This document shows positions 25,221 to 47,552 of a DNA stretch of 64,000 nt, piece by piece (the first letter of the stretch is position 1; every line of letters starts with the position of its first letter). The notes below the pieces were generated by a model. It was not told the DNA's origin. It saw nothing but the letters and a program-made list of their open reading frames with translations, and ran no database searches. Source of the stretch: Symbiodinium sp. CCMP2592 (taxonomy: Eukaryota; Sar; Dinophyceae; Suessiales; Symbiodiniaceae); the NCBI GenBank assembly GCA_905221615.1, contig CAJNDT010000611.1:62001-126000 (forward strand), in the 5' to 3' direction. Both the position numbers and the translations under genes were made by a program.

Positions 25221-25221
25221 C

Positions 25222-25757
25222 CCTTACCCACACGGATCGACTGCCCTTCTCGGTTCGTGGGCACCGTTGGCCGGGTGTCAGGTTATGAGGCGATTGTATC
25301 TAGACCGCCTTGGGGCCAACGTGCCAGGGCAGTGGCATATGACACCCGGACAAATGGGCTAAAGTGCCGGGTGGGGCGGTTGAGGGGTTGTTCGCAGCCG
25401 TGCTTACAGCCTTGAAGGGGAGGCCATCCATGCTTGTCGTTACGTTTTGTTAGGGAGCCTTGCGACTTGGATCGACAGAGGCAGAGTGCCACCTTACCCA
25501 CACGGATCGACTGCCCATCTCGGTTCGTGGACACCGTTGGCCGGGTGTCAGGTGTTGTCGATGGTACCTGGACCGCCTTGGGGCCAACGTGCCAGGGCAG
25601 TGGCATATGACACCCGGGCACATGGGCTAAAGTGCCGGGTGGGGTGGTCCAGTGGTTGTGGCTTTTTTATTTTTCTCCCAACCAGGAGGGGAGGCCATCC
25701 ATGCTTGTCACGTTAGTTAGGGAGCCTTGCGACTTGGATCGACAGAGGCAGAGTGCC
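25222..25757 (+). repeat. two tandem copies of a ~268-bp unit containing a structured motif
   Basis: Units 25222-25490 and 25491-25757 are near-identical, each ending in GGCAGAGTGCC. Each contains the inverted pairs CACCGTTGGCC/GGCCAACGT and CCGGGTGTCA/TGACACCCGG in interleaved order. Each also contains a hairpin CACCCGG-(17 nt)-CCGGGTG at 25343-25373 and 25611-25641. Related hairpins lie at 44568-44598 and, cut off by the gap, near 45065. Confidence 0.8.
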
Positions 25758-26199
25758 AGTCGAGCCTCTCGAGGTTGCCTTACTTAAGTCCCTGCCCCAT
25801 CGGGGTTGCTCCCCACACCGTTGGCCAGGTCTAAGTGTTCGGTTTGAATCCAAGCCTAGTGAACGCCTTCTCTTCCATTTCCTTCTCTCCCATCGGTCTT
25901 CATCGGCTTCCAGCCCATCGAGAAGTGGATGCCAACTGCTGGGATCTCAGCATCAGCTTGCTTCAGCTACTTCCATTATTATGGTACAGTCCTGGCACCG
26001 AGGCTCATGACGAGGATCCTGAGGACATGCTGCCATCGCAGAGGACAAGCTGCCTTGCATAGTCAGTGAGCGTGTCATGTATCGCAACTTGCCGCTGCAG
26101 CAGTTGTGCTCGCTGTTGCCCTGCGTAATCTACTATAGTCGTGTTACAGCTGCTCTGTCTCAAGTCTAAGTCGTAGTAGGCCCCCCTGCAAGCCGGCAG

Positions 26200-26538
26200 A
26201 TGTCGTCCACGTCGTGGAGTGACAGTGAGTCTGTGGGCTCGGACTGGGTTCTGGTTGACGATGAGGGTGCAAGCACTGCGGGCTCGGTCGCGGACAGTTT
26301 TGACGACGATGATTCTGTGATTCCGTTCGACACGATGCTAGAGGAGTGCTTTACGACATTCTGGATGTTTCTGAATTCTCAAGAGCGTGGGCAAGTCTTG
26401 CAAGTAGCCTGGTCTGTCAATGAGCAGATCATGTTCACACTCTTTCCGAGACTTCGGCGGGATTTTCGGCAAGGCAGAGTGCCAGGAATTTTATATTACA
26501 ATGTGTCAGACGAATTTCTGGCGTTACTGCTTCAATGA
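26200..26538 (+). CDS. acidic unknown protein, copy 1
   Basis: The ORF of 112 codons begins MSSTSWSDSESVGSDWVLVD in a reasonable start context. It has a Ser/Asp-rich N-terminus (residues 1-45) and a globular segment (residues 48-95, EECFTTFWMFLNSQERGQVL). A GGCAGAGTGCC copy at 26473 reads GRVP in frame. Downstream, in another frame (26545-26682), lies a cysteine-rich stretch ending LEDFEFDDLASRARLSDLRP that resembles the start of a RING finger. An unseen intron may join them. I do not recognise the family. Confidence 0.55.
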   Translation: MSSTSWSDSESVGSDWVLVDDEGASTAGSVADSFDDDDSVIPFDTMLEECFTTFWMFLNSQERGQVLQVAWSVNEQIMFTLFPRLRRDFRQGRVPGILYYNVSDEFLALLLQ

Positions 26539-27065
26539 TTTGTCGTGTTTGTACAGCCTCCGAGACCGTATTACGGATGTTGGGGAAGGCAGAGTGCCGG
26601 GTTTGCGTGTGTTTAGAGGATTTTGAATTCGACGATCTCGCCAGCAGAGCTAGACTGTCCGATTTGAGACCTCAGCGGTAGTGTGCGCAAGTTGGATTCA
26701 AAACGGTTACCCAGCATGACATGCTGACTACACAGTGCCGGGTGGCAGTGATGTCCTCAGGACCCTGCTGTCTCCGAGGCTGGCTGCCTGCCTGCCTGCC
26801 TGCATAGTCTGTCAGTGAGTTGCCTTGCACCATACATGATCGACATCTGTCTGCCGGCCAGGGAATCAAGTGATTCATTCATACTGATGTAACAGTAGTA
26901 ACACAATGTTACATATCATTGATTAATGTACTGTATAGTGATGCATTAGTCACTGTTAATGTTTTAATCTTTGGACAATTGAAGTGTGCTCGATGAAAGC
27001 AGTGATCCCGACGACCTGCTCTGTCTCTAGTCTAAGTCGTAGTAGGCCTCCGTGCAAGCCGGCAG

Positions 27066-27410
27066 ATGTCGTCGACGTCGTGGAGTGACAGTGAGTCTCT
27101 GGGCTCGGTCTCGGACTTATTGGCTGTTGGCGAGTTTGCAAGCACTGCGGCGTTTGGGGGTTCGTTTGTGGGCTCGGTCGCGGACAGTTTTGACGACGAT
27201 GATTATGTGATTTATTTCGACGAGCTGCTAGAGGAGTCCTTTTCGACATTGTGGATGTTTCTGAATTCTGAAGAGCGTGGGCAAGTCTTGCAAGTAGACT
27301 GGCATATCAATGACATGATCCTGTGCGTACTCGTTCCGAGATTTGTGCGGCAAGGCAGAGGCCAGGAATTTTACATTACAATGTGTCAGACGAATTTGTG
27401 TCGTCACTGA
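27066..27410 (+). CDS. acidic unknown protein, copy 2
   Basis: This is a paralogue of the preceding ORF by tandem duplication (114 codons). It starts MSSTSWSDSESLGSVSDLLA, has an insertion in the acidic part and keeps the segment LWMFLNSEERGQVLQV. The repeat copy at 27354 has lost one base (GGCAGAGGCC), which moves the frame relative to copy 1 after Arg-Gln-Gly-Arg. The RING-like stretch (27418-27561) is conserved; one of its cysteines is encoded by a GGCAGAGTGCC copy at 27468. Confidence 0.5.
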   Translation: MSSTSWSDSESLGSVSDLLAVGEFASTAAFGGSFVGSVADSFDDDDYVIYFDELLEESFSTLWMFLNSEERGQVLQVDWHINDMILCVLVPRFVRQGRGQEFYITMCQTNLCRH

Positions 27411-27865
27411 ATCAATGATTTGTCGTGTTTGTACAGCCTCCGAGACCGTATTACGGATGTTGGGGAAGGCAGAGTGCCGGGTTTGCGTGTGCTTAGAGGA
27501 TTTTGAATTCGACGATCTCGACAGCAGAGCTAGACTGTCCGATTTGAGACCTCAGCGGTAGTGTGCGCAACTTGGATTCAAAACGGTTACCCAGCATGAC
27601 ATGCTGACTACACAGTGCCGGGTGGCAGTGACGTCCTCAGGACCCTGCTGTCTCCGAGGCTGGCTGCCTGCCTGCCTGCCTGCATAGTCTGTCAGTGAGT
27701 TGCCTTGCACCATACATGATCGACATCTGCCGGCCAGGGAATCAAGTGATTCATTCATACTGATGTAACAGTAGTAACACAATGTTACATATCATTGGTT
27801 AATGTACTGTATAGTTATGCATTAGTCACTGTTAATGTTTTAATCGTTGGACAATTGGGTGCTCG

Positions 27866-29164
27866 ATGAAAGCAGTGATGCCGACGACCGTTTCAAGGTG
27901 CTCAGGGAGTTCCGAGGCAGAGTGCCAGACTTCTGCTGCTGACCATCAGAATCAGGCCAATCACATTGACCTTGGCAGTGATTACTGGAACGAAGCCGTG
28001 CAACAACTTCGGTGGAATTGTTTACACTGTGGCAGATCAGCTGCCGACTATACCACCGGGCTCCGAAAGATCCAAAGGGCTGCACAATTGGATCAACGAA
28101 TCAAATTGGCAGTCGAGGCCATCTCAGATTTCGGAGATATGGATATGAAGTTGTACAAAGCATGGACCGGCCAGACAGATGTGCTGCCTGGGTCGATCCC
28201 GCCACCTCGGCCATGCCAGCATGATGTCGAGACGTGGCCCATGGATGATGTTTTGATTTACGACCATCCCCAGTGGCAACTGTTTGTTGGCAGTATTGGT
28301 TGCCCGATACGATATGACCAGCTCCGGGTCAAGCCTGACATTGTCATCTCTATGAATGCAGATGACAGACCTCGGAATTTTGAGCCATGGGACTGGTATC
28401 AGTATTTGGCGAATTGTGGACCGTTTGGCACTGCACATCTTCGGTATGGTGGCTGGGATCAAACACATGCCAATGACTTTGATGCTGAACAAAGAAGTCA
28501 TGAGTTCAAGACCATTTGGCGCCGCCTCATTTCAGATTTCAGAAAGATCATGATGTGCTGGCAGCGCTCAGCAGAGGAGTTCAGCCAGAGTCAAAGGCAG
28601 AGTGCCATCAAGGGCAAAATGATGGGCAAGGCCAATGGCGGCAGGGGCAAGGGCAAGACAATCAGCAAGGGCTACAGCGGCCCCTGTCAGGTTTCCAATC
28701 ACATGCAAAGACAGAAGGCATCGACGAAGGGCTCATTTGGCTATGGCTGCTCCTATGACAAGGGCTTCAGCAAGGGAAGTGACATGGGCAGCCTGTTCGG
28801 AAGAGCCGCTGATGGAAGGCAGAGTGCCGCTGGAAGGCAGAGTGCCTTGAAGGTGGCCGATGAGACATTCCCTGGTGAGCTCGGTAATGCTCTTGCTTTG
28901 TTGGAGGCGATGAAGCTTCAGGGAGGTGGTCGGAAGCGTGGAGGCAAGAAGAGGCCAATTCGTGTGCTTGTCCATTGCTACGGTGGCATTAACAGGACCT
29001 GTGCTGCTTATTGTGTCCTAGTCATGGCCTTTGCCTCGATGACCATGGAACAAGCCATTGTCAGGTGGATCAACCACCGAGCCTACTATGCTCCATTCCG
29101 GGATCGTGAGTACATGATTGAAGCACTGCTGGAAATGCAGGATGAGCTGCACACGTACAGTTGA
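27866..29164 (+). CDS. dual-specificity phosphatase-like protein
   Basis: This single ORF of 432 residues has the phosphatase loop HCYGGINRT (catalytic Cys371, Arg377), which matches HC-x5-R-T of the DSP/PTP superfamily and recalls RNA triphosphatase-type loops. The segment around residues 139-160 (LFVGSIGCPIRYDQLRVKPD) resembles the N-terminal strand of DSP domains. Between them, residues 245-345 are a Gly/Lys/Gln-rich insertion containing three in-frame GGCAGAGTGCC copies read as RQSA. No intron is needed. The start at ATG 27866 is the first in frame, but it lies before another repeat copy (27916) and a later start is possible. Dephosphorylation of protein or RNA is inferred; the substrate is unknown. 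Confidence 0.7.
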   Translation: MKAVMPTTVSRCSGSSEAECQTSAADHQNQANHIDLGSDYWNEAVQQLRWNCLHCGRSAADYTTGLRKIQRAAQLDQRIKLAVEAISDFGDMDMKLYKAWTGQTDVLPGSIPPPRPCQHDVETWPMDDVLIYDHPQWQLFVGSIGCPIRYDQLRVKPDIVISMNADDRPRNFEPWDWYQYLANCGPFGTAHLRYGGWDQTHANDFDAEQRSHEFKTIWRRLISDFRKIMMCWQRSAEEFSQSQRQSAIKGKMMGKANGGRGKGKTISKGYSGPCQVSNHMQRQKASTKGSFGYGCSYDKGFSKGSDMGSLFGRAADGRQSAAGRQSALKVADETFPGELGNALALLEAMKLQGGGRKRGGKKRPIRVLVHCYGGINRTCAAYCVLVMAFASMTMEQAIVRWINHRAYYAPFRDREYMIEALLEMQDELHTYS

Positions 29165-29681
29165 TCATCGACACTGAACCCGAAGTCCATGGTCAAACAG
29201 TTCTGCTCCAATGAATGATTCTGAGCCGTCGAAATTTGTGTCCCGACACTGGCCCAGCCAGAGAGTCCTGGACCCGACACTGGACTGCTGGCTGGAAGTG
29301 AAACACAGTCCTTACCTTGAAAAGGCTAATAGTTACATTCCCACTTTCAGCTGGCAGTCACAGCTTAATTCGTGCTTTAAACCTGGCTGCCGGTGTTACT
29401 GACTGAGCTTAAAAAGAAAGTGAGATCATGCCCGTCTCGGTTGTGGAAACTGTCAGTTCCTTTGTCGGTTGTGCCGACATGGTGATCAGGGCCGCTGGGG
29501 CGATTGGATGAGTGAATCCAGCCGGCGACTCAGTGGGTGCAAATGTGACTTTAACAGTCAGTCTCCGGTGATTGTAATGAGTGCTCATTTTTGCCTACTT
29601 GTGCTGTTGCAGCTGTCTGGGTTCCGGTGTAAGGCAGAGTGCCCTTGTCCCATTTGTGCAGTGGGCAAGTCATTATCCGCC

Positions 29682-29966
29682 ATGGAAAACACGGGCGCAG
29701 TTCGCCAGCGCACTCGGCTGCAAGAGTTTTCAAGTTGGCAGATGGCCAACTTGAGCAACGCCGGTCAATCCCAAAGAACAAGTCAGGTCGGGAAGGGAGG
29801 AAGTAAGGGAGGAGGAAAGCCAGGGCCAGGGCAGAGTGCCAGTGCGAGCAAGGGCGATCTTGGCAAGGGCAAGGGAAAGAAGGGCAAAATCCCGATGCAA
29901 GACCCCAACCAGATCCTTTACACATACTTCATGTGCGTGGAGGACGTTTGGCAGGCAGTGGGCAGT
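29682..29966 (+). CDS. small spliced protein, exon 1
   Basis: From ATG 29682 (MENTGAVRQRTRLQEFSSWQ) the ORF passes a Gly/Lys-rich stretch with an in-frame repeat copy at 29830 and ends MCVEDVWQAVGS at a GTATGT donor at 29967. The open frame extends upstream through a Cys-rich stretch (29633 repeat copy, CPCPICAVGK), so there may be an earlier exon after the acceptor at about 29612. I do not recognise the family. Confidence 0.6.
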
Positions 29967-30038
29967 GTATGTGATGATAATCATAGCATGTGTTGATTGT
30001 GAGTGTTTCTTACTGCTTGACTGGATGTCTCCCTGCAG

Positions 30039-30272
30039 GTTCGATATGAATTCTTCAAAGCGAACGGCATCGCCGCTTGGGCGCAACCCGGTGCCACGCA
30101 GGATAACACTCACAAAAGTTATCCGCACTGGTCCTTGCGCCCCACGGCCCAGACGGCCCTTCAACGCTACCAATGGTGGCCAAAGTGCATTAGATGGCCA
30201 CTCAGATTCAAGCAATGCTTCGACGCTACATTTATTTATTATCTTATACCTACGGATCTTAATACTGACTAG
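30039..30272 (+). CDS. small spliced protein, exon 2
   Basis: The exon follows a 72-bp GT-AG intron (29967-30038, CTGCAG acceptor) in phase 0. It encodes VRYEFFKANGIAAWAQPGAT, then a Trp/Arg-rich stretch to a TAG at 30270-30272. Together with exon 1 the product would be 172 residues. The clean intron and phase make this a convincing gene model, though the function is unknown. Confidence 0.7.
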   Translation, partial: VRYEFFKANGIAAWAQPGATQDNTHKSYPHWSLRPTAQTALQRYQWWPKCIRWPLRFKQCFDATFIYYLIPTDLNTD

Positions 30273-30406
30273 AATCAAGTAGCAACTTCAACATGATCTC
30301 AGTTCAGGATCGATCAACATGCACCGCCAGCTTACCTGAAGCTGGAACTCACCGGTGCAGGCATGCAAGTGATGACGGAGAGAAGATGGCTCTATTCCTG
30401 TAATGA

Positions 30407-30639
30407 GGGCTGGGCGCGGGGGTGGAGAATTTGACGCTGTGGGACGGGGAAGTCACCGACGGTGACCAAATCTTGTGGACCACGACCATGGTGAGATTCG
30501 CTTACGACGAAGATGATCCGGAGGCCTGGAATGAAGAGCGTGTGAAGATGAGGAGGATTACAACGAGTTCGAATCTATGATTGAGCAAGTTCAAATGACA
30601 CCTGTAGACAGCGAATTCGTTCAAGTCGAAAGGCCGTGA
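30407..30639 (+). pseudogene. acidic ORF with a frame change
   Basis: Frame 1 reads VENLTLWDGEVTDGDQILWT and continues through DEDDPEAWNEERV. At about 30540 the coding signal moves to another frame (EDEEDYNEFESMIEQVQMTP through VERP and a TGA at 30637). No splice site fits the switch. Either one base is wrong in the assembly or the gene is broken. Three repeat copies follow within 50 bp. Confidence 0.45.
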
Positions 30640-31787
30640 GAAAAAAGGGCAGAGTGCCTTAAAAGGCAGAGTGCCAAAGGCAGAGTGCCCACCATTGGAC
30701 CATTCAGTGAGTGGGTTGGCCCAAATTCCAATATCAATTTAATTTTCAGGCCAGGACAGTGACGAAGGCAGAGTGCCAGGAAGGCAGAGTGCCAGGTGGG
30801 TCAGGCTTCGTCGACTGACTCTTCTCAAGTTTTTCAGTGCCGATGTCTGCTCATGTGGACTTCTGCCTGCCTTTCGCACAGCAACAGGTTATTTGTTTGT
30901 GGTGCAGGCCAACCAACAAGTCATGATCAAAGTTGTGAGTGTTTTGGAGAAGGCCTCGTCGCTGTCAGAGTAGTGCCTCCAGAAGAGTGCATTGCTTGCT
31001 GCAGAAGCAAAACTGTGAGTGCTGAGACTTCTGAAGACCGAGCACTTCTGAGTTCTGTTGGATGTGTTGGGTTTGCGACTGTGCTGAGAGAGTCTGAGTA
31101 TGAATGAAAGTGACCATGCAAGGTTTGGCCGTCAGCTGGCGTCTCCAGACCCCAGGATTGCTGGTCATCGGTGCTGTTCTTAGCTTCCGATCATGCTGCT
31201 TCTGCGTTGCCAAATTCAACTTAGCATTCTCGGGCTTCTGAAGTGTCATGTCATGATTGTTTTGCCTATGGCTTATGATGGTTGCTCAGGTTTCAAATGT
31301 TGCTGCAGTGGTCCTTGAATCATGGCATATGGCAGATTTGAATATCAACACAGCCCTTGAATTAGGTTTCATTCGTGTGCTAAGCTCCCGATCATGCTGA
31401 GTCTGTCTGGCCCCTCAATTAAGTTAAACTCCGTGTAGCTGCTGCTTCAATAAAAGTGTCATGTCATGATTATTCTGTCGATGGAGTTGCTCAAAGTGAA
31501 GTGAGTCGTGGTCCTTGAATGATGGCATATGCATGATATTTAATGTCAATGTGAGCATAATATCAAAATATAGTTGATATAATTTAAATTGTGTCAAATA
31601 CTAGTAACTATAATCTAACAACACATTGACGTCAGAGGTAGTATATCATTTCGACATTATAAGGCAGAGTGCCGCCTCGCCATTCTTTGCAGAGTGCCTT
31701 GAGCTGGACTGAGAAGGCTGAGTGCCTGCATCTGGCTGGACAAGGCAGAGTGCCGCAATCTGGCTGGACAAGGCAGAGTGCCGCAGG
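30640..31787 (+). other. intergenic stretch with clustered repeat copies
   Basis: Eight exact GGCAGAGTGCC copies (30648 to 31772) and two variants lie here. A 100-codon open frame at 30796-31107 lacks an ATG start and looks non-coding. From 31250 to 31620 there are two diverged copies of a GTCATGTCATGATT...GTCCTTGAATnATGGCATATG segment (31245-31340 and 31458-31530). Confidence 0.6.
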
Positions 31788-31860
31788 ATGACAGCGCCTG
31801 TGCATACGAGTCCGCTTGGTCAGACGTTTTGGGCCAATGTGCGAGCCGGCAACATCACCT
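31788..31860 (+). CDS. large Pro/Gln-rich protein, exon 1
   Basis: The exon starts MTAPVHTSPLGQTFWANVRA at ATG 31788, three bases after a repeat copy. It ends at a consensus GTGAGT donor at 31861 in phase 1. Confidence 0.6.
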
Positions 31861-31898
31861 GTGAGTTTTACGAACAACAGCTGGATGGATCCTTGCAG

Positions 31899-33660
31899 AT
31901 GGGTGGAATTATCCCTGGCCGATCAAAAAACCTCTAGAATACTATGTCACAGCCTTCGGTGAGGTCCGCCTGCAATTCCGCGTGAGAGGCGGGAAAGGAT
32001 TCAAACAGTGCAAGTGTGAATGGAAATACATCGGTCATGGAATGAATCGGGACTCAATGATTGCGAGGATCCCACAGCCGTGGGTCATCGACATTCTGAA
32101 GCTTCTGCGCGAGCTCAGGATTCCTCGGTCTGAAAGGCAGAGTGCCGAAGTCCTCAACGCCTCGGAAGTCGCAGCAGAGGCCCTGAGACTGGTGGATTCT
32201 ATTCCTGAAGATGCTCTGGACTTCAATAATCGGACAGATCAGGTGCACCTCTGTGTCAAGCTGCACAGGCCACTCGCAAAGGATGAAAAAGAGTGTGGAA
32301 ACCAATTTGACTGGCGTTTTCTGCAATCTCGAATGTTCACAACCCACTGGCAATCGTTTCCTGTCCCGCTCGCTGTCGACTTGAAAACCTTGGTCACCCA
32401 TGCCTCGGGCGTAGTGGCACCGCGGATGAGAAAATCGGTGATCGTCACAGAAGCCAAAGGCAACGGGACGACTGTGGGAGCCTTCCTCAACCAGAGGTTT
32501 TCCGACCCAAGCAAGTTCCCAGAGAAAGAGACCATGCTGATCCTCTTCAAGCTGTTCAAGTTTGTATTGAAGCTACAAATGCATACCCTTAGGCTGGAAG
32601 GGTGTCTTCTGGGGGACCTCCATGAGAATAACATTACTGTCATGGGAGGCAGAGTGCCGGACCACAAAGGCAGAGTGCCAGTGGGGGCGGAGAATTTGAC
32701 GTTTGCCTTGGTGGACTGCTCCGGTTGCCTACCAGTTATGGCTGTTCCCGAAAAAAGGATGAAGGGTCACCTCAACTGCTTTCTGAGCTTGTGGGCCATT
32801 CCCTCAAACCACAGCGCCACCGTCTCCGAGTACGCGTCAGAGGTCTGGAAGAAGATGCTTGCCGCTGGCGAAAAATTCAAATCTGACTATGGACCGAATA
32901 AGTGGAGAACTGGTGAAATGGTGACCGATCTGTACAAGTTGTGCAAGAATCTGGAAGCAAAGTTCCAGCAGGGTCTGGACTTGATGCAACAATGCCAGCA
33001 GATGAGGGTCGAGGCAACAAGGGCAGTAATGAGCAGAATGCAGCCGCAGGCACTTGCGCCGCCGAATCCTCCGCCAACACCTCAGTGTTGGGATTCGACA
33101 CCTCCCTGGGATCCCCCTGGATCTGCGACTGCAAAAGCCAAAGGGATGAAAGTAGGAGTGCCAGTAGAAGGCAGAGTGCCAGGCAAAGGCAAAGCAATAC
33201 ATCATCCTGATGGGACTCCTCCCAGGGGGGCCCGCCCGCCTTTGCATAAACCGCCTCAGCAAAAGGCGAGGCCTCCTTCTCCGTGGCAGGTGCCAGTAAG
33301 ACCGCTGCGAAATGCTGGGCCTCTGCCTGATCACCCTTGGCAGCAGGAGTGGGAACCACTTCCTCCTGGCAGGGTGCAACCAGATCATCCTCCTCCTGGC
33401 AGGGGGCCGGTGCAACCAGATCATCCTCCTCCTGGCAGGGGCCGGTGCAACCAGCTCATCCTCCTCCTGGCCACCAGCAGCAGCAACATCGCTGGGGCAG
33501 AACGGCCAGAATGCCCGTCATCCAGGACGAATACGATGCCTGGGATGACGATGAGCCGAATCCCGAGCCGAATTCCCGGCCAAGAGTGCCAGAGCCGATG
33601 GGTCCCCCGCCGGCAAAGCAAGGCAGAGTGACAGTTTATGTCGGCAAGTGCTCCTGCTGA
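31899..33660 (+). CDS. large Pro/Gln-rich protein, exon 2
   Basis: After a 38-bp intron (31861-31898) the frame continues GWNYPWPIKKPLEYYVTAFG and runs for about 500 codons. The N-terminal two thirds look globular (for example RSERQSAEVLNASEVAAEAL; FLNQRFSDPSKFPEKETMLI; LRLEGCLLGDLHENNITVMG). The LGDLHENNI stretch resembles the catalytic loop region of kinase-like folds (HxDxxxxN-type), but this is weak. The C-terminal third is Pro-rich, with a 36-bp unit repeated three times at 33360-33470. There, one copy has one G fewer and the coding signal shifts frame; without correction the ORF stops at 33629-33631 on a TGA formed by a mutated repeat copy, and in the shifted frame it ends at 33660. Confidence 0.6.
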
Positions 33661-34063
33661 AATGACGGAACAGCAAAGGATGGACGAGCAGGATTTCGCC
33701 AAGGAACTTGCCGAGTATGCTGACGATATGGCAAGAGGCTCCAATTTCGTTCCGCAGGGCCGACGCGCTGAGCCGGCCTGGGTGGCAAAGGCCCAGGGCT
33801 TGAAAAGCAAGGGCGACTCCGTCCCGATCGGGAAAGCAGCTTTCTTCGCCCAAAAGGGCAAGCCTGCCGGAAAGGGCCACAAAGGCAGAGTGCCAGTGGA
33901 GGACAATATCCCTACTCACCTTGTTGGAAAGGGCCGTCCAGCCCTAGTGCCACTGGAGGACAATATCCCTCACCTTGTTGGAAAAGGCCGTCCCAATATC
34001 CCTACTCACCTTGTTGGAAAGGGCCGTCCAGGCGAAGCTCATCCTGCTTTTTGCGGCATATGA
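33638..34063 (+). CDS. Lys/Gly-rich ORF with internal repeats
   Basis: The ORF begins MSASAPAEMTEQQRMDEQDF at ATG 33638, just downstream of the preceding stop. Residues 85-135 are three copies of a DNIPTHLVGKGRP unit (33897-34030), and a repeat copy at 33884 reads GRVP. It may be a separate gene or a continuation of the upstream ORF through an unrecognised splice or frame error. Confidence 0.5.
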   Translation: MSASAPAEMTEQQRMDEQDFAKELAEYADDMARGSNFVPQGRRAEPAWVAKAQGLKSKGDSVPIGKAAFFAQKGKPAGKGHKGRVPVEDNIPTHLVGKGRPALVPLEDNIPHLVGKGRPNIPTHLVGKGRPGEAHPAFCGI

Positions 34064-35467: not shown

Positions 35468-36177
35468 TTAGTGTCAATGATTGAGCTGAGCGAGTAGGTT
35501 TATTAATTGTGTTGCCAAAACAAAGCCATCTAGTGGACCTCCTCTTCTGCATCCCATTCGTCCTTGGGCACTGGGGACTTTCACAAGGCAGAGTGCCAGA
35601 GAGTTCTCGGTGTGACTAAGGCAGAGTGCCACCAAACAGTGTGGCCTGTTCAGATTCTTTTTTTTGTCGCTGTCACTAGGCAGAGTGCCGGAAAGGCAGA
35701 GTGCCAATGTGAAATCGCATTTCTTGGGGCGTTTGAATGTTGTCACTTTTGCAGTCCGTCTGATCTGGCACATTTCAGCTTGCCGTTTTGGAACACAAAG
35801 ACGATGCCTATGCATACAGTCATGTCGGCAGTAACTCGATGGATTAATTACTGTGCCTGTGAATTGATTGGTTCAACCTTGGTTTCCTGTGACAGCCCCA
35901 TAAAACCTCTCAGGTGCTGGTGTCCAAGGTGGTTGGCTACTATGGCAAGGCTGGAATGCATGATGCAAGTGATTGTGAGTTGTGGAAGCTGAAACGCTTG
36001 CTATCTGGCCGTTGATGGGACCATGCCACGTAGTGTGGACGGACTCTAGTGACTAGTGAGTGGATGCGCAAGAATTTCTTGACCTGGCCGCAATCAACAT
36101 ATGTGTGTTCAAGATCGAGTCCCTTAGTGCTGCAGTGGTGCTTCCAGGCAGAGTTCCAGAGACAGTCGCCGAGAGCA
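35468..36177 (+). other. intergenic or intronic stretch
   Basis: Four repeat copies cluster at 35587-35705, one variant (GGCAGAGTTCC) lies at 36147, and short open frames without sustained coding signal occur. Possible untranslated or intron sequence of the genes on either side. Confidence 0.5.
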
Positions 36178-36612
36178 ATGGGAAAGTCGAGGAAGAGCGC
36201 TCGTGTGAGTGATCAGATGATGTTCCCAATGCCGGGGGCAATGAACCCAGCAATGGGAATGAACAACCCACTGGCCATGATGAACCCTTTCATGTTGCAA
36301 CAGCAGCGACAGATGCAGCAGCAGCAACAGATGCAGCAAATGCAGCAGATGCAGCAAATGCAGCAACAGCAGCAGATGGCTGCTGTGGGTGAATCAAGGC
36401 AGAGTGCCAACGCCTCCTCCTCGTCGGAATCAGAAGACCAAGAAGTGAGGAGGATTCGTAAGGAAACCAAGAAGAACAGAGCAAGGCAAGCAGCAACGAT
36501 CGGGATTGATCGGCTGGCAACGTCCACTACCGATGCAGATGCAAGCCCGAGAAGCGCCACGACATTGCGTTCGATCCCTCTGGCTGCTTGTCAATCAACA
36601 GAGTATCCCTAA
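36178..36612 (+). CDS. Met/Gln-rich ORF, possible 5' part of the RING gene
   Basis: From ATG 36178 (MGKSRKSARVSDQMMFPMPG) the ORF has Met/Asn/Pro repeats, a 30-residue Gln/Met tract (36301-36377), an in-frame repeat copy (36398, RQSA) and a basic stretch (IRKETKKNRARQ). Past about 36485 the coding signal moves to another frame (PEKRHDIAFDPSGCLSINRV) that ends at a possible donor at 36615. A short unrecognised intron is likely. Confidence 0.45.
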   Translation: MGKSRKSARVSDQMMFPMPGAMNPAMGMNNPLAMMNPFMLQQQRQMQQQQQMQQMQQMQQMQQQQQMAAVGESRQSANASSSSESEDQEVRRIRKETKKNRARQAATIGIDRLATSTTDADASPRSATTLRSIPLAACQSTEYP

Positions 36613-36672
36613 GGTCAGCAATGATCCCTGAACCCTCCCCCCACAAAGCCTAGATAAGCCTTACTGACTGAG

Positions 36673-37872
36673 GTGAAGGTGAAAGCTCTGCTCGAGCGGG
36701 TTCATAGTGCATGGGATGCCGCGGTCACGGCTGACCTGCCACAACAAACAGCGCTGCAACTGCTCTTCATATTGACCAATCTGAAGCCGACCACAAAGGT
36801 CAGTGAACTCAGGGTCGATAGCAAATACAGCTTGCTTGGTCAGCGATGTGCGAATGCCCGTACGCGTCAATCCCTCTGCGATAGCAGCAGTTGGAACCGC
36901 ATAGCCAAACCGGTTCTGGGAATGGGGGTGAATATGTCTGAGCATTCTGTTGACAGGGTTGCCTGGGAGTGTGGATGGCAGTCCACATGGATGACCGAGG
37001 ATGTCACGACCTATGCCAGGCGTAGAGCGAGAGCAAGGCAGTCCACTGAGACGCAGGGACGTCTCAGTTTCAATCCGAGTCCGGCTCCAGCTGCCCCGCC
37101 AACGGTTCCGCCGTCGGAAGGCAGAGTGCCAGACGTGGTCCGTTCTGGTCCTTTGCCAACGACTGCTCCTAGTTCCAATCCAAGCCAGGCTGTGGGTCGC
37201 AGCCCGGCTGGGGAACAAGGCAGAGTGCCGATTCAACAGCCGCCTGCTTCCCCTCATGCCGTTCCGGGTTCCAATGCAAGCCAGACAACCGAAGGCAGCC
37301 AGGCTGCAGGAAGTGAACAAGACAGAGTGCCGAGGGTTGTGGAAGGCAGAGTGCCAGTTGATGGGAATGCTCCTGCCATGGATCACGATGGTCTAGCGCC
37401 GGCAGAGGCAGAGATCAGGCCCGATCAGGAGATCGTCATGCCTCCTGCAGAAGTGACCACTGCACCTCAAACAGTTGAGTTGCCAGAGCCAGACACCTCC
37501 ACGAACAGTGCCTCGACAGCCGGTGCTGACGTGAATGCCGTTGTGCCCTTTGCGACACCCAAGTCGAAAGCCAAAGCAAAAGCCAAGGGCAAGTCGAAAG
37601 CCAAGGCCAAGTCCAAGGCCAGGGCGACGGCACCAAACACAGAGGCGCAGGACGAGGTCGCAGTCGAGGTCGATGATGAGTTCATGGCCGAGGCCGGGGC
37701 CGAGGTCGAGGCCGGGGCCGAGGTCGAGGCCGAGGTCGAGCGCGAGGCCGACGACAGTGTCTTCTTTGAGGAGGAGGAGGAGGAGGATGCTCCGAATGAG
37801 TCGAGCAGACCTGCGAACCGGTGGAACCAGGACCTCTGTGTCATTTGCCATTCGGAGATGCACCCGGGCCAG
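36673..37872 (+). CDS. RING-H2 protein, N-terminal and first half of RING
   Basis: The exon opens after an AG near 36672 with VKVKALLERVHSAWDAAVTA, then a long Pro/Ala-rich linker with four in-frame or near-frame repeat copies. A Lys/Ala block follows (AKAKAKGKSKAKAKSKARAT), then EAGAEVE repeats, and last the first zinc ligands CVICHSEMHPGQ. There is no ATG at the 5' end, so an upstream exon must supply the start. The RING makes it a likely E3 ubiquitin ligase; membrane segments are absent. Confidence 0.7.
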
Positions 37873-38005
37873 GCAGGCTGGTTTCGTTTGCATTTGGTTA
37901 ATGAACCATTGATAGTGGTGCCTGTCCTGTTTGTACATTCCACTAATCCTCAGAACAGTACCTCTCACATGACGTGTCTTTTTCTGTTGCTCCCCTGGAA
38001 TGCAG
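37873..38005 (+). other. GC-AG intron splitting the RING finger
   Basis: The 133-bp intron begins GCAGGC and ends AATGCAG. The exon ends on both sides read CAG/GCA, so the exact border is ambiguous within a short direct repeat. Joining in phase 0 restores a complete RING-H2, whereas no GT donor does. Confidence 0.8.
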
Positions 38006-38299
38006 GCATTGGAAGCGCTATCGTGTGGCCACCTCTTTCACAGCGAATGTATCAATCGATACTGTGAGTCGACCGGGCGGAACAAGGCCACCGCTTGCCC
38101 TCTCAAGTGTGCGAGCTCAGCATCTATGGCAAGGTTCTTTTTGGGTCCGAGGGGGTCCACGGGAAGCAATGCCCCTGTTCCTGTCGAAGATGATGCTAAT
38201 GATGTGGACGCAATCGTTCAGGAAATACAAGCTCAACTCGTTGACGACCGCACTCGTGAAGAGGAAGCTACTGAGGTCAACGACCCCGTGGTGGACTGA
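38006..38299 (+). CDS. RING-H2 protein, second half of RING and C-terminus
   Basis: The exon reads ALEALSCGHLFHSECINRYC through ACPLKC, supplying C-x-H-x2-H-x2-C and C-P-x-K-C of the C3H2C3 RING, then an acidic tail (EEDANDVDAIVQEIQ-like) to a TGA at 38297. Spacing fits the family. Confidence 0.85.
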   Translation, partial: ALEALSCGHLFHSECINRYCESTGRNKATACPLKCASSASMARFFLGPRGSTGSNAPVPVEDDANDVDAIVQEIQAQLVDDRTREEEATEVNDPVVD

Positions 38300-38795
38300 T
38301 TGCGTCGACAAGGTGGCTCGGTAACAAGGCAGAGTGCCACAATAACTGGCTCATGTGTATGTGTTGTCGGTGATGTGGCCTCGAGTCTTATTAATTTTGG
38401 AGGTGTGGCAATGCCATTGTCACAGACATGTTTCTGAAGGCGGAGTGCAATGGGTTGTAACATGTGTTCCATGATCATTATGTATTGACATGATTGTGTT
38501 GCCTTGTGTTGCATTATGCCATCAGGAATGTATGTCTCTTTGTAATCCCAGGCGGTCTGTCGATTTCACAAGGATACTGCAGATGCCTGTGGACAAATCC
38601 GCGCCAAAGACAGGATCCAACCTGTCCTAGAACACCAGTTGGGAGGGACCCAACAAAGGACCACGGAAGTCTGCAATGGGGTGCATCCGTGTTTAAAAAA
38701 ACATATGGCCTTTGAAGGGACACCATCCCCATACCGCCCCACAGGCCCTGCAAAATCTTAGAAGACATTTGTGACACTTGTGGCATGCCCCGGAA
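38300..38795 (+). other. 3' flank of RING gene
   Basis: It contains one repeat copy (38328), one loose variant (38439, GGCGGAGTGCA) and no supported ORF. The sequence leads into the minisatellite. Confidence 0.6.
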
Positions 38796-39300
38796 AACTC
38801 TTATTGAATCTTATTGAATCTTATTGAATCTTATTGAATCTTATTGAATCTTATTGAATCTTATTGAATCTTATTGGTCCATCATTTTTAAAAGGGACAC
38901 GACTCCAGATCGCCCCAAAAAATCTTATTGAATCTTATTGAATCTTAGAAGACATTTGTACAATTGTGGCCTACCCCGAAAAAATCTTATTGAATCTTAT
39001 TGAATCTTATTGAATCTTATTGAATATTATTGAATCTTATTGAATCTTATTGAATCTTATTGAATCTTATCGGTTTTACAAGGGACACAGCCTCCAGCTC
39101 GCCCAAAAAATCTTATTGAATCTTAGAAGACATTTGCAGGATTGTGGACTACCCGAAAAAATCTTATTGAATCTTAGTGTTCGGGCCATCACGTTTTGAA
39201 GGCACACCGACCCTGTACCAGACAATTGCACACATGTAGCATCCACTCCCAAAAGTCTTGTTGGAGCTTATTGAATCTTGGGAGCTAGTTATACAATATC
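38796..39300. repeat. 10-bp minisatellite in a higher-order repeat
   Basis: The unit TCTTATTGAA is repeated in blocks at 38796-38876, 38924-38950, 38985-39070, 39108-39125 and 39158-39172. The blocks alternate with spacer copies containing AAGGGACAC, TCGCCC, AGAAGACATTTG and GTGGCCTACCC, giving a higher-order period that shortens from about 190 to 100 bp. Confidence 0.9.
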
Positions 39301-39795
39301 GAATCCCATTGAATCGGCACAGTCCAGCTAACCCAACCAAATCCCTACGAGTAGTAACACATCTTATGATTAAGCATAAACTAGGTGGCACTCTGCCTTG
39401 AAGTACCTTTAAACCATGGACCTCCTTAAAACCTAAAAACCTGAAGCTCTTTTAAACCCTAAACCGTTACTGTGTGTGGTAAGTTTACACATAGACCTAG
39501 GTATATGTATAACATACATACATACATATAGATATATGTATGGATTATATGCATACACTTATTATTGGGCATACTGCTTTCGAACATTAAACTACATCCT
39601 CTATTAATAGCACTCTGTCTTCAAATATGTGTTAATCTAATGATCATGTGCATAAATGCTTGTGTCGTCCAGTGGAACCTATTGCATGTGGTATTGAAAC
39701 GGACATGACAAGCAACTTCTAGTACCTGTTCGTACTATCCAACACATATAGTTGCTTGCAGCTTGTTGGATCAAAGATATTTAAAGTTAAGCACC
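39301..39795. other. intergenic spacer with the only minus-strand repeat copy
   Basis: GGCACTCTGCC at 39387-39397 is the single exact minus-strand copy of the island repeat; a looser minus-type copy lies at 39609. Short CCCTAAA-like words (39450-39466) and a TACA/TATA stretch are also present. Confidence 0.7.
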
Positions 39796-40677
39796 ATGGC
39801 ACCGAAACCGCAGGCCAAACCGGCAGCAGCGGGGAGGATCGGCCGGGTGAGGACTCCGAAGCGACGGCCTCGTAGAGTGCCGCCAACCGGTGTGAATGGC
39901 ATTGGTGAAGAAGGCGGTGGGGCGGAAGGCAGAGTGCCAGGGCCACCCAGGGGTCCGCCGCCGCCAACACCTGTGAATCAGCCACCTTTCCCAAGACCTC
40001 CCGCCCCTGCGCGACATGAGTTTGAGATTGCCCAAGCTGTGGCAGAAGCGGTGGACATTATGGAGACCCCGATCATGATCAACTTCGAGCCGGATGTGGT
40101 TACTGTTAGGGAGGGCCGCATTGTTCTGGTCACCCTTGAGAACTTGACCCCTGAAGAGATGCAACGTCGGCAGTTGGGACGGCGAATTTGTGCCATGTGT
40201 TTCAATGCTCCAGACAACCCCCCGCCACCAATAGTGCCGCCAAGGCCGATGCCTGAAAATGGCTATCCTGGCCCTAACAATAATGCCAACAGTGGAGCTA
40301 CTGAAGGCAGAGTGCCAGAAGGCAGAGTGCCGGAAGGCAGAGTGCCAGATGAGTTCGAAAGTGGAGTTCGTGGTCAAATGTTTTTTCGTTTGGAATCTCG
40401 CCCGGATGCCTGGTTGACTGTGCCAGCTCGTGCCGAAGGTGAGATTCACGCCTCAGACTCAGATGTGATTGAGGAAGGTGTTCGAGATGTTCGTCTTGGT
40501 GAGCTTGGAGGGCGGGGTCGTTTGGGTATTGATTATGGGCACATCTCAGAAGAAGACCCGGGCTGGAGTCAGCGCGGCTCAGCGGATGATGGAGCCCCCT
40601 CAGATGTGATGGAGGAAGGTGAGGAGTCCGACTCTGATGCTTCTTCCACTAATGCTGTTTGTCAGATGGAAGACTGA
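39796..40677 (+). CDS. Pro-rich acidic-tailed protein
   Basis: The ORF of 293 residues starts MAPKPQAKPAAAGRIGRVRT with a good context (CACCATGGC). Order: a basic N-terminus; a Pro-rich region with one repeat copy (39928, GRVP); a globular core (residues 75-140, HEFEIAQAVAEAVDIMETPI); a short CAMC motif; three tandem repeat copies (40306, 40321, 40336, read EGRVP three times); and a Ser/Asp/Glu-rich tail. It needs no intron. Not recognised; it may be a gag-like or nucleic-acid-binding protein given its company, but this is a guess. Confidence 0.6.
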   Translation: MAPKPQAKPAAAGRIGRVRTPKRRPRRVPPTGVNGIGEEGGGAEGRVPGPPRGPPPPTPVNQPPFPRPPAPARHEFEIAQAVAEAVDIMETPIMINFEPDVVTVREGRIVLVTLENLTPEEMQRRQLGRRICAMCFNAPDNPPPPIVPPRPMPENGYPGPNNNANSGATEGRVPEGRVPEGRVPDEFESGVRGQMFFRLESRPDAWLTVPARAEGEIHASDSDVIEEGVRDVRLGELGGRGRLGIDYGHISEEDPGWSQRGSADDGAPSDVMEEGEESDSDASSTNAVCQMED

Positions 40678-41064
40678 TTATTTTAGCTCACCAGCAAAGA
40701 CTGCATAGAAGGCAGAGTGCCAGTGCAGAATCTGCCTGACAAGTGGCTGCCACCTCGGTGGTCTCGCAATCGTCGAGTGATATGGATGGACTGCTGTGTG
40801 CGGTACCAGAAAACCGAGAATCGAGTGAGGGTCTGGCAGTGCTGTATTTGATTGCTTGAGCATGAAGTCATGGTCTGCAACAACTATGCCACATGTGAAT
40901 TTCAACGAGTGATTGCATCATGTCTGTCTCATCCTTGTGTTGTGATGGATCAATCGACTCACAAGTGTGTCCACTGCTGAATGTGCTGGTTCACAATTAC
41001 GTTGTTAATTCGAACACCCTTGAGGTTAAGGTGTTACACTTTCTTGCGGATAGGACAGAGTGCC
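40678..41064 (+). other. spacer before the methyltransferase-like ORF
   Basis: A repeat copy (40711) and a variant (41054, GACAGAGTGCC) that directly precedes the next start codon lie here. No coding ORF is supported, though an open frame runs back from the next gene to 40981. Confidence 0.6.
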
Positions 41065-42138
41065 ATGGACAATGCAATGTCGAGTGCCATGTCTGCAGCA
41101 GCAGATGACCCGACTGAAACAAGAAGAAGACTGTTAGCAGACATTCGGCGGCAGTTTGATGCAAACATCGCACTGGAGAAGAGATTCTTGGCCATTTCGA
41201 GAGGACAGGATGTTCTGCGCCTTTGCGAAGTTGACCCGTCGCTTCTGGCGTTCCATAATGAAGGTCCTTATGAAGTTCTGCCTGAGTGCAACTATGATGT
41301 GATTCTTGAAGCCAGTGGGTTTTCCTGGATGATATCAATCTGGCAACAAATGTTATCAGAAACTTTTCCCATCATGACTTCGTGGCCATGGAAGAAACAG
41401 ATGAGATTCCTCATCAACTTTTGTCATTGCAAGCGGAACATAAGGCAGAGTGCCAGGTTCCACTTCCTGGAGATCTTTGCAGGGCAGGGCAACCTCAGTC
41501 GGGAGATGCTCCGTGCTGGCTGGCAGGGGCTAGCCTTGGACATCAGGTACGGCACAGATCATGATATTCTTTCTGTGAGAGGACTTCGCCTGGCTGTCAA
41601 TGCTGTGTGTCAAACACACAAACACGGCCTGGTGTGGTTTGGGACTCCATGCTCTTCCTTCGTCCAACTCTGTAAATACAGTACTGGAAGGTCCATTGCC
41701 AATGACTGGATGGGAGAACCTGAGCGATCGCTGGCATGCCAAGAAGGCAATCGTTTCATGTATGTGACTCTGCTGTTGACTTTGCTCGCGGCTTTGAATG
41801 ACAACCGGTTTGTGATCGAGCAGCCTTGCTCCAGCATGCTGTTCGACATTCCACTCGTCGATCGTGTCATGGGAATGATCCAGGCTATGAAGGTCCAAAC
41901 CTATGGTGGTGCCTTCGGCCAGCCCATCCTGAAACCGCTTCAACTGTGGAGCAACTGTCAGCACATCAATGGTATGCGGCGCAGCTATCCTTCCGATGTC
42001 AGAGGAAGTGCTGGTTGCGTTGATCGAGATGGTGAGAAGTTCACCGGTCGTCCTGAAGATCTTCAGGTGTCAGAGGAGTACACCCCGGAGTTCGGCAAGG
42101 CTGTGGCCTTTCATATGATGAGGGATGTCCCAACATGA
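41065..42138 (+). CDS. cytosine-C5-methyltransferase-like protein
   Basis: The 357-residue ORF runs from ATG 41065 (GTGCCATGG context). Motif I is LEIFAGQGNLSREML (Phe138 onward; SAM binding). The PC motif is WFGTPCSSFV (Cys196, in the place of the catalytic PCQ cysteine). A motif VI-like stretch is RFVIEQPCSS (252-254, EQP where ENV is usual). The order I-IV-VI fits the C5-MTase fold, but the diverged motif VI leaves activity open. Diverged enzymes of this type, often linked to retrotransposons, are known in dinoflagellates. An in-frame repeat copy (41444, RQSA) lies just before motif I. No target-recognition domain was recognised. Confidence 0.7.
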   Translation: MDNAMSSAMSAAADDPTETRRRLLADIRRQFDANIALEKRFLAISRGQDVLRLCEVDPSLLAFHNEGPYEVLPECNYDVILEASGFSWMISIWQQMLSETFPIMTSWPWKKQMRFLINFCHCKRNIRQSARFHFLEIFAGQGNLSREMLRAGWQGLALDIRYGTDHDILSVRGLRLAVNAVCQTHKHGLVWFGTPCSSFVQLCKYSTGRSIANDWMGEPERSLACQEGNRFMYVTLLLTLLAALNDNRFVIEQPCSSMLFDIPLVDRVMGMIQAMKVQTYGGAFGQPILKPLQLWSNCQHINGMRRSYPSDVRGSAGCVDRDGEKFTGRPEDLQVSEEYTPEFGKAVAFHMMRDVPT

Positions 42139-42718
42139 ATGGTAGCTGAAGGCAGAGTGCCAATAAGGCAGAGTGCCATAATTCTCTAGAGTTAAATGAG
42201 CTTGCTTCATCTTTCGACATTCTGTCTTGTTGGTATTCTGCTTTCCAATGTTGGGACTGGGTTGAGCCCTGGACCCCGTCCGTTCCCGCCACGAGGTGCC
42301 GAGGAAAATCCTCGCCGCCTCGTGGAAGGATCTGAGTGATCCGAGCTGGTGCAGCTGTGCAATGAAAATGTAGAGAGCTTCAGTCACTCCGTGATCAGAT
42401 GTGTTTGTCGGTATTGTCTCAGTTCGTATGCTGCTGTCGTGCAGGTGGCCATGACCTGGCTGGTGTCTCGACCTCCAGTTGCAGGCATCGGTGGCCTGTG
42501 TTAATCATTCCATGTGGTTGTCAGTTCAGTGCCATCTGCGATAGTTTCCTGTCTCAAGTTCGAGTGACATGATGTGGATGCTGACATGTCATCGTGAGTC
42601 TTTGGGTTGATTTCTTAAGAATTCAATGTGTTGTGAACTGGGGCTTGTTACACAAGTGCAGGTGTGTGTCAGTATTTAGTAAGATTCAAGTACAGTGTTG
42701 CTTTGGAGGATTTCGGTG
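42139..42718 (+). other. spacer between methyltransferase-like and last island ORF
   Basis: Two repeat copies lie just after the stop (42151, 42167). The rest is unique, T/G-rich sequence without a supported ORF, perhaps 3' and 5' untranslated sequence. Confidence 0.6.
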
Positions 42719-43748
42719 ATGCTTCTGAAACTGTGGGTCATGCTATTGCTCCGTGATGGGCAATTGCTTAACTTGGAAAATGATGCAAAACTGCCAGCGA
42801 GAGCAGCTTGGCTCTCACATGGCGAACTGTGGTGGCGTCTGGACTTGTTTTTCGATGAGAGCAACAGGAACGGCTCAGAACGTCGACAGTACCACAAATG
42901 GTACAACTTCTTCAGTGATCTTCTCAGGAAGACCCCCTTGGCTGCGAACTGGTGGTCACATGTGCAAAGTCAAAAAGGCAGAGTGCCAAACCCTGATGCT
43001 GTACAGGAGGATGTGGCATCTTCCACAGCCTTGGCCCGATTCATGTTGCAAGCATCCTTCGACACAAGGACAGACGCCCACAGGGAATGGTACAAGAGAA
43101 AACTGAATGATGCTATGGTACGTGTGTGTGAAACTATCAGTGATGATCCTCTGGTCATGCAGTTGGATGAAGGCAGAGTGTCATGGTTTCTTCAATCAGC
43201 TGGGTTGGTGTCAGGCTTTGCCGCTTGGATGATGAAGTCGCTGGCAGGCAACACTTCCCGATCTTTGCGTCAGCTTTGGGAATCTATGTTCAATGCAAGG
43301 ACGCTGTCTTCATCTCTCCGAGATGAATCTGAAGGCAGAGTGCCACGAGATTGGGAGGAGGTTGAAACTAGCATCTACGACATCATCGCCTTTGCAACCA
43401 TGGCAAAAAAAACACAGAGCGCTTCAACCGTCGGGGCAGGCTCATGGATTTGCCAAGACAGTCTTGAATGCCTTCATGCACATACATGAGTGTCTGTCCG
43501 AGACATTGTCAGCCGGCCTCCAGGTGTATGTCATTGGGCACTACTTGAGTGTACATGATGCTGGTGTGCCTGTGACGTCTCGCAGGGCACTTCTGGGCAA
43601 GCGTGTTCCCTTGAAAAAGACTGTGGACATCAAAAGCATCTGGAAGTTGCTAGAGGGCGCTGCAAAAAGTGGGACCTCTTTGCGACAAGCCCTCATTCTC
43701 AAGAACCAGGACGAACGCAGCGACCTGCCTGGTTCCTTGGTGATTTGA
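42719..43748 (+). CDS. unknown protein, frame broken at an A-run
   Basis: The ORF starts MLLKLWVMLLLRDGQLLNLE and continues as a globular, Trp-rich sequence with in-frame repeat copies (42977, 43334) and a variant (43172). At an eight-A run (43405-43412) the coding signal moves to the frame that reads HGFAKTVLNAFMHIHECLSE and on to the TGA at 43746-43748. A run of seven A would keep one frame throughout (about 343 residues). Assembly or sequencing error is the simplest explanation. Not recognised. Confidence 0.55.
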
Positions 43749-43868
43749 TATGGAGTAGAATGTTGTTTTGTTAACCAGTTGTTTAAGATTAGTGAATTCT
43801 TTGTCACACATTCATTTGATGCCACGTACCCGCGCCACAGTCGAACTAAATTCGACTACCGCTCTTGC

Positions 43869-44015
43869 CATGGCCGACCCGACGTTCGGCTCTTGCGCCA
43901 AGCTGTTGGCCAAGTCCACCAGAAGGTAATGTCGGGGGCAGAAGTATCCGCTGCGAACTCTGGGATGGCACCACGACGACCACGACGTCCTGCTTCTTTG
44001 CGAGCAGAGGGCGAC
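43869..44015 (+). pseudogene. short ORF with an in-frame stop
   Basis: The frame reads MADPTFGSCAKLLAKSTRR, then TAA, then continues KYPLRTLGWHHDDHDVLLLC EQRAT in the same frame to another stop. The protein-like sequence on both sides of the stop suggests a broken gene or a readthrough; a 16-bp intron is not credible. Confidence 0.35.
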
Positions 44016-44229
44016 ATAAGCATAGCGCGGGCAAATGCTTGCAGCTGCTAGTGGTCGTTGAGAGCCTCATATCCCCATGGCAGAGCGGGGTGACCCCATA
44101 TCTCGGCCGAATGTGGGTGGCCTAAGTCTCCGGTCCGCATGACTGTCAGAGCACGTTCGTCTTTGCAAAGACGCCGGGGAGGCCGTTACAGAAAGGGATG
44201 CTTAAGTCAGGTTGTGCATTTAATATTTA

Positions 44230-44890
44230 TGAAAGGCAGAGTGCCAGTAAAACTTCTAAGGGTTCAGGGTTTAGTGGTTTGCTGCGCTGGCTGTTGATCA
44301 GAAAATCCTTGTCGATTCGCTTGCCGGCATGTGGAGGCATGTGTGTGGCCGCTACCCAGGACTCGCTGTGTCTCGCACAGGGCTCTGAGGGAAGAACGTA
44401 GTGCAGGGCAACTTATAGTCGCACACCATTAGCCGGGGTCACTTCCCTGAGGGTTCGCTAGTGCAGGGCAGCTTGTAGTTCACCCCGTTAGCCGGGTGTG
44501 GCGGGCCGCTGTTTGGGATTTTCGGGCTCTTGAGGCCAACGGGGATCTGCTGACCAGATCCCTATGACAGCAGGACACATGGGCTAACGTGCCTGCTGGG
44601 AGCCCCCCATTTATGTCTCTGCACGCTCTGGCTAGCCAGTAGTCAGTGCGAGATGATGACCCACTCGGGGGCAGCAGGGGAGGCTCTTGAACTGTTGATC
44701 GACCGAGTGCGCAACATGGAAGGCCGAATCGAGTGAGTAGTCATTAAGTGTCAGGTTGTGATCAAATTTATGAAAGGCAGAGTGCCAAAGGCAGAGTGCC
44801 AGTAAAACTTCTAAGGGTTTTTTAGTAGGGTTTAGTGGTTTGCTGTGCTTGCTTTTGATCATAAACGTCCTTGTCGATTCGCTTTCCCGA
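44230..44890 (+). repeat. direct repeat pair beside the scaffold gap
   Basis: 44230-44335 and 44771-44890 share a repeat copy followed by AGTAAAACTTCTAAGGGTT, TAGTGGTTTGCTG and CCTTGTCGATTCGCTT. Between them, AGTGCAGGGCARCTTRTAGT occurs twice (44400 and 44460), together with the hairpin at 44568-44598. Confidence 0.8.
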
Positions 44891-45079
44891 CCTAAACCTG
44901 AGCAGCGGGCTGGCCGAGGGGGCCCTAGAGACCTGCCAGGTTCCATCTTGTTGGCCGTGTTGGGGGCAGCGATCCATCCGGAGCTGAAAGCTTGGACACT
45001 GACGCCTGCGTGGCCTCGTGGCGGCCACCCTTGGGGCCAACTCCCCTACAGCCCGAGGGGTATGACAGCAGGGCGATGC

Positions 45080-47515: not shown

Positions 47516-47552
<37 letters not shown>

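Follow-up and report, generated by a model that had tools for sequence, protein, structure and literature searches.

An island of repeated 11-mers in the genome of the dinoflagellate Symbiodinium sp. CCMP2592 represents one copy of a DNA transposon with terminal inverted repeats (TIRs), a young element present in many copies. The island lies in a 64,000-nt stretch of contig CAJNDT010000611.1 (the window, all of which was analysed), where the 11-mer GGCAGAGTGCC occurs in 48 exact copies, the first starting at 25480 and the last ending at 44800. On balance we favour, if by a small margin of belief, the interpretation that a giant, hAT-like DNA transposon uses this 11-mer as a tag, specific to its family, by which it identifies itself. 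The tag is, on our best reading, lineage-specific, strand-oriented and kept by selection.

An earlier note on this DNA had counted 48 exact copies in 19.3 kb and none in the other 44.7 kb, and had considered this far beyond chance. Our recount gave the same figures, and 100 dinucleotide shuffles of the window contained the 11-mer 0.03 times on average (maximum 1). Forty-seven copies are on the plus strand (p = 3.5e-13), and a single one, at 39387-39397, is on the minus strand. As the note had also remarked, the motif is usually preceded by AA, with A at position -1 in 46 and at position -2 in 43 of the 48 copies; at +1, 33 copies have A and 11 have G, such that AAGGCAGAGTGCC(A/G) looks like the working unit. 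The 47 plus-strand copies have 42 distinct 8-nt flanks on the left and 43 on the right, and some of the equal flanks trace to local duplications. Copies with one mismatch number only 7 in the window. On the plus strand of the island, words of the form GGCANNNTGCC have either GAG (47) or its complement CTC (1) in the middle and no other triplet, making the middle as invariant as the arms. The proposed minimal hairpin was borne out by folding: as RNA, the 15-mer forms a 4-bp stem with a GAG loop (-4.4 kcal/mol, z -2.9), a fold equalled by 3 of 200 shuffles. Among the words of the island that are dispersed with many different flanks, 9-mers of the motif top the list; the highest-ranking words unrelated to it derive from a tandem repeat.

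The note had described a gene island. Its density and confinement held up; what had been overlooked is that it is a transposon copy, occupying positions 24792..45079 of the plus strand, with its right part missing. Aligned in pieces, it shows 95-98% identity to a second copy, in contig C1 (C1:1146666-1190173), which extends about 8 kb further rightward and contains an internal 14.8-kb tandem duplication (L009-L013). The left TIR of the window copy (43 bp, 24792..24834) matches the right repeat of five other copies at 37 or 38 of 43 positions. In these five copies, which we read at both ends, the two TIRs are identical at 38/43 positions in three and at 37/43 in two. The left end starts with TCCTTAACCCTTTGC and, across 8 copies, is bordered by 7 different flanks, one of them common to L119 and C1. 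Target duplications of 5 bp were found in four of the five copies (TCAGT, TATAG, TTTTA and TATAT, the last being the low-complexity one of C1), whereas the flanks of the C2068 copy disagree (ATGTG/TTTTT). The elements measure 28.8 kb (C1407), 28.7 kb (C2068), 30.8 kb (C324) and 33.7 kb (C169) from end to end, these four having been read at their ends alone, and 43.5 kb in C1, including the duplication, where the interior was read as well.

We searched the organism's own genome (1.098 Gb, 5383 contigs) and found 9890 + 10552 = 20,442 copies of the 11-mer, against 118 + 126 for the reversed control. DNA searches gave 303 first-look candidates for the methyltransferase-like gene of the element and 644 for its left end; the 40 candidates scored in each case were 99-100% and 100% identical, respectively. 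With about 70 motifs per element, some 290 elements would be needed to supply 20,442 copies, a number near the 303 candidates. This is consistent with, but no proof of, all genomic copies belonging to this transposon family, whose amplification plausibly explains them. The earlier note had named two outcomes that would count against its proposal, a uniform genome-wide density and an origin of all copies by segmental duplication of one repeat-bearing sequence. We reject a uniform genomic motif: the first 100 listed sites, from C1:1147141, fall within 37 kb, and 30 kb of sequence beyond the C1 copy are devoid of any 11-mer. The second outcome plausibly holds genome-wide, through amplification of the element, but not for the dispersal of the motif inside the element, where flanks differ. 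Among the 52 first-listed transposase matches, the open frame is 962 aa in 48, 957 aa in 3 and 950 aa in 1. Three near-identical transposase exons with 957 or 950 instead of 962 aa (L111-L113, in C2213, C358 and C2556) differ by the loss of one 15-bp motif unit (L111 and L113) or by a 36-bp deletion (L112). When P0023, a homologue of the transposase, was the query, the matches listed, 52 scored out of 831 candidates, were again those of the main family.

The right part of the C1 element has a further 15 plus-strand and 9 minus-strand motif copies. The nine minus-strand copies sit in a satellite of ~93-bp units adjoining the right end (C1:1147141-1147894, L009), each unit carrying one 11-mer in the opposite orientation within TTTAGGG-like sequence. 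Right-end pieces of four other copies (L121, L123, L125 and L127, all cut pieces) have 3-5 motifs, and the number of units may vary from copy to copy. Such inward-pointing copies are what one would expect if the motifs were internal binding sites of the transposase or an accessory protein that acts in transposition, like the subterminal motifs of En/Spm, which are bound by TNPA. Motifs of that kind are normally subterminal, whereas the present ones fill about 25 kb, including open reading frames (ORFs), and are absent from the outermost 690 bp of the left end. We regard a role as transposition sites as quite unlikely.

The motif appears to be accommodated by the reading frames of the element. 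Eight plus-strand ORFs of at least 255 aa, defined from stop to stop, contain 20 of the 47 plus-strand copies (2.19/kb), and the remaining 27 lie outside (2.42/kb), shorter ORFs being counted as outside. Of the note's statement that copies lie in coding sequence, introns and spacers, the presence both inside and outside reading frames was thus borne out. Where two motifs are at most 40 bp apart, their spacing is a multiple of three in 4/4 pairs inside the long ORFs and in 1/8 outside, suggesting that reading frames are respected, although the motif itself occurs in every frame and is read as KAEC, RQSA or GRVP. Selection at the protein level on EGRVP is ruled out as the sole cause, because the motif is read in three frames and is also present outside the long ORFs. 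An RNA-processing signal of the host or the element in sense transcripts, for splicing, trans-splicing, polyadenylation or translation, would agree with the sense-strand bias and the foldable hairpin. The equal density inside and outside the long ORFs and the absence from the remainder of the window speak against it, and a host signal should not vary between related elements; we consider such a signal very unlikely.

To evaluate constraint on the motif, we compared the window copy (subfamily A) with the C1 copy (subfamily B), using plus-strand sites that were ungapped in both (43/52 motif columns in one alignment and 37/46 in another). Differences were found at 2 of 473 motif positions as against 43 of 2003 flanking positions (p = 0.007), and in the second, overlapping alignment at 2 of 407 as against 33 of 1636 (p = 0.03). 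Random ungapped 11-mers would be expected to show 10.6 differences (P = 0.008). Between the two subfamilies, the rate of change is thus four- to five-fold lower in the motif than in its flanks. Thirty young copies retain ten local sites in 29-30 cases, which says little because these copies are about 99% identical.

A neutral origin, in which the 11-mer was spread by slippage, tandem duplication and conversion in one ancestral element that was then recently amplified, with no reader, has in its favour the tandem-unit changes of 14, 15 and 16 bp seen between copies and the very young amplification, to which the 48 open frames of 962 aa attest. It does not readily account for the 42-43 distinct flanks among 47 copies, the single orientation, the reduced substitution in the motif or the other repeated motifs of three homologues (see below), and we judge it unlikely.

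The same comparison bears on how motif copies arise. The presence differences between the window and C1 consist of tandem units, a ~42-bp local repeat, point changes and a 1-bp deletion; one further site, with re-made flanks, carries the motif in both copies and aligns in 30/30 young copies. An isolated new motif copy was not seen in either of the two alignments. At one core position of the transposase, the sequence is LKAECHH in P0017-P0020 and, with no change in length, LATQH, LMTQH or LKRQH in other lineages; the window's family shows a decayed version. The lack of a length change suggests that the motif can arise by substitution. The earlier note had compared the motif to the palindromic elements of Rickettsia, and a mobile micro-palindrome of 11-16 bp inserting into genes and spacers would explain the near-exact copies in all three frames and outside ORFs. 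The nearby site LKAECP, too, looks by eye like a 6-aa insertion relative to other lineages. The Rickettsia elements, which are roughly 100-150 bp long and inserted, likewise place palindromic repeats inside reading frames, but the present unit has 11 bp, keeps to one strand and gives no sign of recent isolated insertion. Besides the lack of an isolated gain and the unchanged length of the LKAECHH site, the RQSA reading at 41444 has, by eye, the same length in P0015 (P0013 and P0014 being 2 aa longer), the strand bias is strict, and three homologues carry other motifs. We therefore disfavour insertion of a micro-palindrome as distinctly unlikely.

The self-tag interpretation gains from the homologous transposases, in which we looked for repeated tetrapeptides (43 proteins, P0017-P0059, with 200 residue shuffles each). 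No shuffle matched the observed count in seven proteins. Four of them, P0017, P0018, P0019 and P0050, repeat EGRV/GRVP, the dialect of the window itself, and the other three have different repeats: QGVL five times in P0022 (QGVLP), GVVP five times in P0023 and LAPA five times in P0043 (LAPAQ). In an alignment that lacked P0043, visual comparison places most of the repeats of P0021-P0023 in variable linkers, at the places occupied by EGRVP in the window's family. For P0043, the pentapeptides LAPAQ and PCASA fit exactly one common 14-mer, CTTGCGCCAGCGCA, which is palindromic; any shared 12-mer was found for 3 of 300 random pentapeptide pairs of this protein. Its readings are LAPA five times, CASA twice and RQR once in the sense direction, and ALAQ once in antisense. 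Among 17 close-relative proteins, which are related and hence non-independent cases, 39 motif readings are sense and 0 antisense. Judged from these peptide sequences, some related transposons seem to carry different versions of the motif.

The transposase is predicted to be hAT-like because P0022, a homologue with 43-47% identity to the transposase exon of the element, models with the DDE catalytic fold of Hermes (hAT), providing the DDE transposase expected of a DNA transposon with TIRs. The element differs from hAT transposons in the 28.7-33.7 kb between its ends, its 43-bp TIR, its cargo ORFs and the absence of a Pfam hAT match (none at E 0.1 for 15 homologues). Its target duplication has 5 bp; that of hAT elements has 8 bp. 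Sequences in the PDB matched neither alignment at E 0.1 and 1. The homologues include one each named Polarella glacialis and Durusdinium trenchii, in keeping with a dinoflagellate host, as are the frequent TTTAGGG-like repeats in the rest of the window.

Several known systems resemble this element in part. The nearest precedent is offered by VANC proteins of the Arabidopsis VANDAL transposons, which bind short motifs of their own family, related families using others (PMC5735166, PMC10398659). Like VANDAL, the present element is a DNA transposon with many copies of a family-specific short motif, whose tandem copies contract and expand (PMC5735166, PMC10398659). The different motifs of related VANDAL elements may have a counterpart in the other repeated peptides of 3/43 homologues (0/200 shuffles), seen in peptides alone. 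Unlike in the plant elements, the motif is palindromic, strand-oriented and also present in ORFs. A VANC-like protein was not identified in the element, in which no search aimed at one was made. The DNA uptake sequence of Neisseriaceae likewise consists of a short, highly repeated oligomer, and its dialects differ between species and govern uptake (PMC3630211), but it belongs to bacterial chromosomes and transformation, whereas the 11-mer belongs to one eukaryotic transposon for which no uptake is known. Dinoflagellate introners are spliced introns that form repetitive units in genes (PMC11453091); the 11-mer, unlike them, is translatable whichever frame of an ORF it falls in.

The palindrome, the fixed loop, the confinement to one strand and the indifference to ORF borders are best fitted by a hairpin in a long sense transcript. 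A factor of the element, or a captured host factor, might recognise the tag; its simplest form would be a short hairpin in sense transcripts, the other a directional DNA site. The tag could then let the element's nucleic acid be told from that of the host, for example to escape silencing. New tags would arise by point change and be multiplied by local tandem duplication, and tag and reader would change together, giving dialects. The earlier note was right about a real, very dense palindrome inside and outside frames, and its suggestion of a protein-binding mark or RNA signal may be right too.

A number of observations weigh against the self-tag interpretation. No reader protein was found here, so we infer the tag function. 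The nine minus-strand copies at the C1 right end would need an antisense transcript or another reason, and VANC motifs are confined to non-coding DNA, whereas 20/47 of the present ones are in long ORFs. The constraint test concerns one subfamily pair, with p = 0.03 in its second, overlapping alignment. Only 7/43 homologues beat shuffling, and four of the seven repeat the motif already known from the window; P0021 (RGVV three times; 5/200 shuffles) is marginal and P0035 weaker (12/200), and the remaining 34/43 have no repeated tetrapeptide beyond shuffles. Repeats noticed by eye, namely PAASR (P0035, P0044), LASTQG/LAATQG (P0046), PCPSAG (P0051) and GHIVD (P0031, P0034), were unsupported by the shuffle test. 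The DNA of the dialects is deduced from peptides. The Hermes-like model is of P0022 and not of the element's own protein, whose 962-aa exon modelled poorly (pLDDT 53.6) with unspecific best matches, and a search by Foldseek alone returned nothing at E 0.001.

More tentatively, and with the odds in our view somewhat against it, giant DNA transposons of dinoflagellates may write an address code, a sense-strand hairpin every ~400 bases across exons, introns and spacers alike, by which an RNA- or DNA-binding factor of their own reads self versus host, in lineage dialects that co-change with the reader. If the self-tag interpretation is right, the element would be an independent case of transposon self-marking by a family-specific short motif, with the mark accepted inside its proteins. 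Discrimination between selfish and host DNA would become testable in a group with poorly known silencing, the differing motifs serving as natural controls. A giant, recently amplified lineage of DNA transposons, with a transposase that has no Pfam match, is in any case described here. The 11-mer is printed in 10 of the papers searched, none of which, judged by title and opening of the abstract, concerns dinoflagellates or transposons, and listings of literature on dinoflagellate palindromes, introners and giant transposons yielded no earlier description of the element.

The remaining features of the window copy are on the plus strand unless noted. Inside the left TIR is an A/T-rich subterminal stretch (24880..25170, no strand assigned) with TTTAAAAG-like repeats and no 11-mer; the C1 copy has a similar stretch at its right end. 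It is followed by an 880-bp tandem duplication (26150..27889), in one unit of which a 1-bp deletion (27354) damages the motif. The ORFs encode 442 aa (27836..29161; 4 motifs, with a weak phosphatase-like end below Pfam cut-offs), 588 aa (31865..33628; 4 motifs, translated as RQSA or GRVP, and no Pfam family at E 0.1), 359 aa (33772..34848; 2 motifs), 469 aa (36658..38064; 3 motifs read GRVP), 322 aa (39709..40674; EGRVP four times, three of these in tandem at 15-bp spacing) and 385 aa (40981..42135). The 469-aa ORF is overlapped by a 108-aa frame (37973-38296) whose match to the RING finger family is marginal (PF00097, 21.3 bits against a cut-off of 21). The 385-aa product, which contains the RQSA reading at 41444 and matches no Pfam family at E 1, we take by eye to be methyltransferase-like from its FAGxG and PC motifs; it had no match in phages. 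In the P0012 record, perhaps a chimeric assembly, this methyltransferase-like protein forms the second half, after a bacterial-amidohydrolase-like first half. A probable N-terminal exon region of the transposase (42683..43745; 2 motifs) resembles, by eye, the N-terminal part of P0024. A local repeat with a motif singlet and doublet (44216..44830), whose number of 14-bp units varies between copies, precedes an assembly gap of 100 N (45080..45179), possibly a scaffold join, at which the transposon copy stops.

A bacterial or viral relation was rejected. Two-copy patterns of the motif retrieved 60 prokaryotic and 2 viral stretches; five of the former and both of the latter were inspected and judged unrelated, the five prokaryotic ones having short tandem repeats or near-adjacent copies, three with a longer palindrome. 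In viral contigs, 56 stretches fitted a transposase-alignment pattern, none of which was confirmed. L029, L056 and L058 (Oscillospiraceae and Clostridia metagenome-assembled genomes) contain tandem repeats, unrelated to the element, with the 11-mer at the core of the longer palindrome GGACGGCAGAGTGCCGTCC. In the window, a 186-bp tandem repeat with TCTTATTGAA units (38754-39125), situated in an A/T-richer spacer, lies near the sole minus-strand motif (39387), and degenerate, telomere-like TTTAGGG repeats are numerous outside the island, at 1-24790 and 45180-64000.

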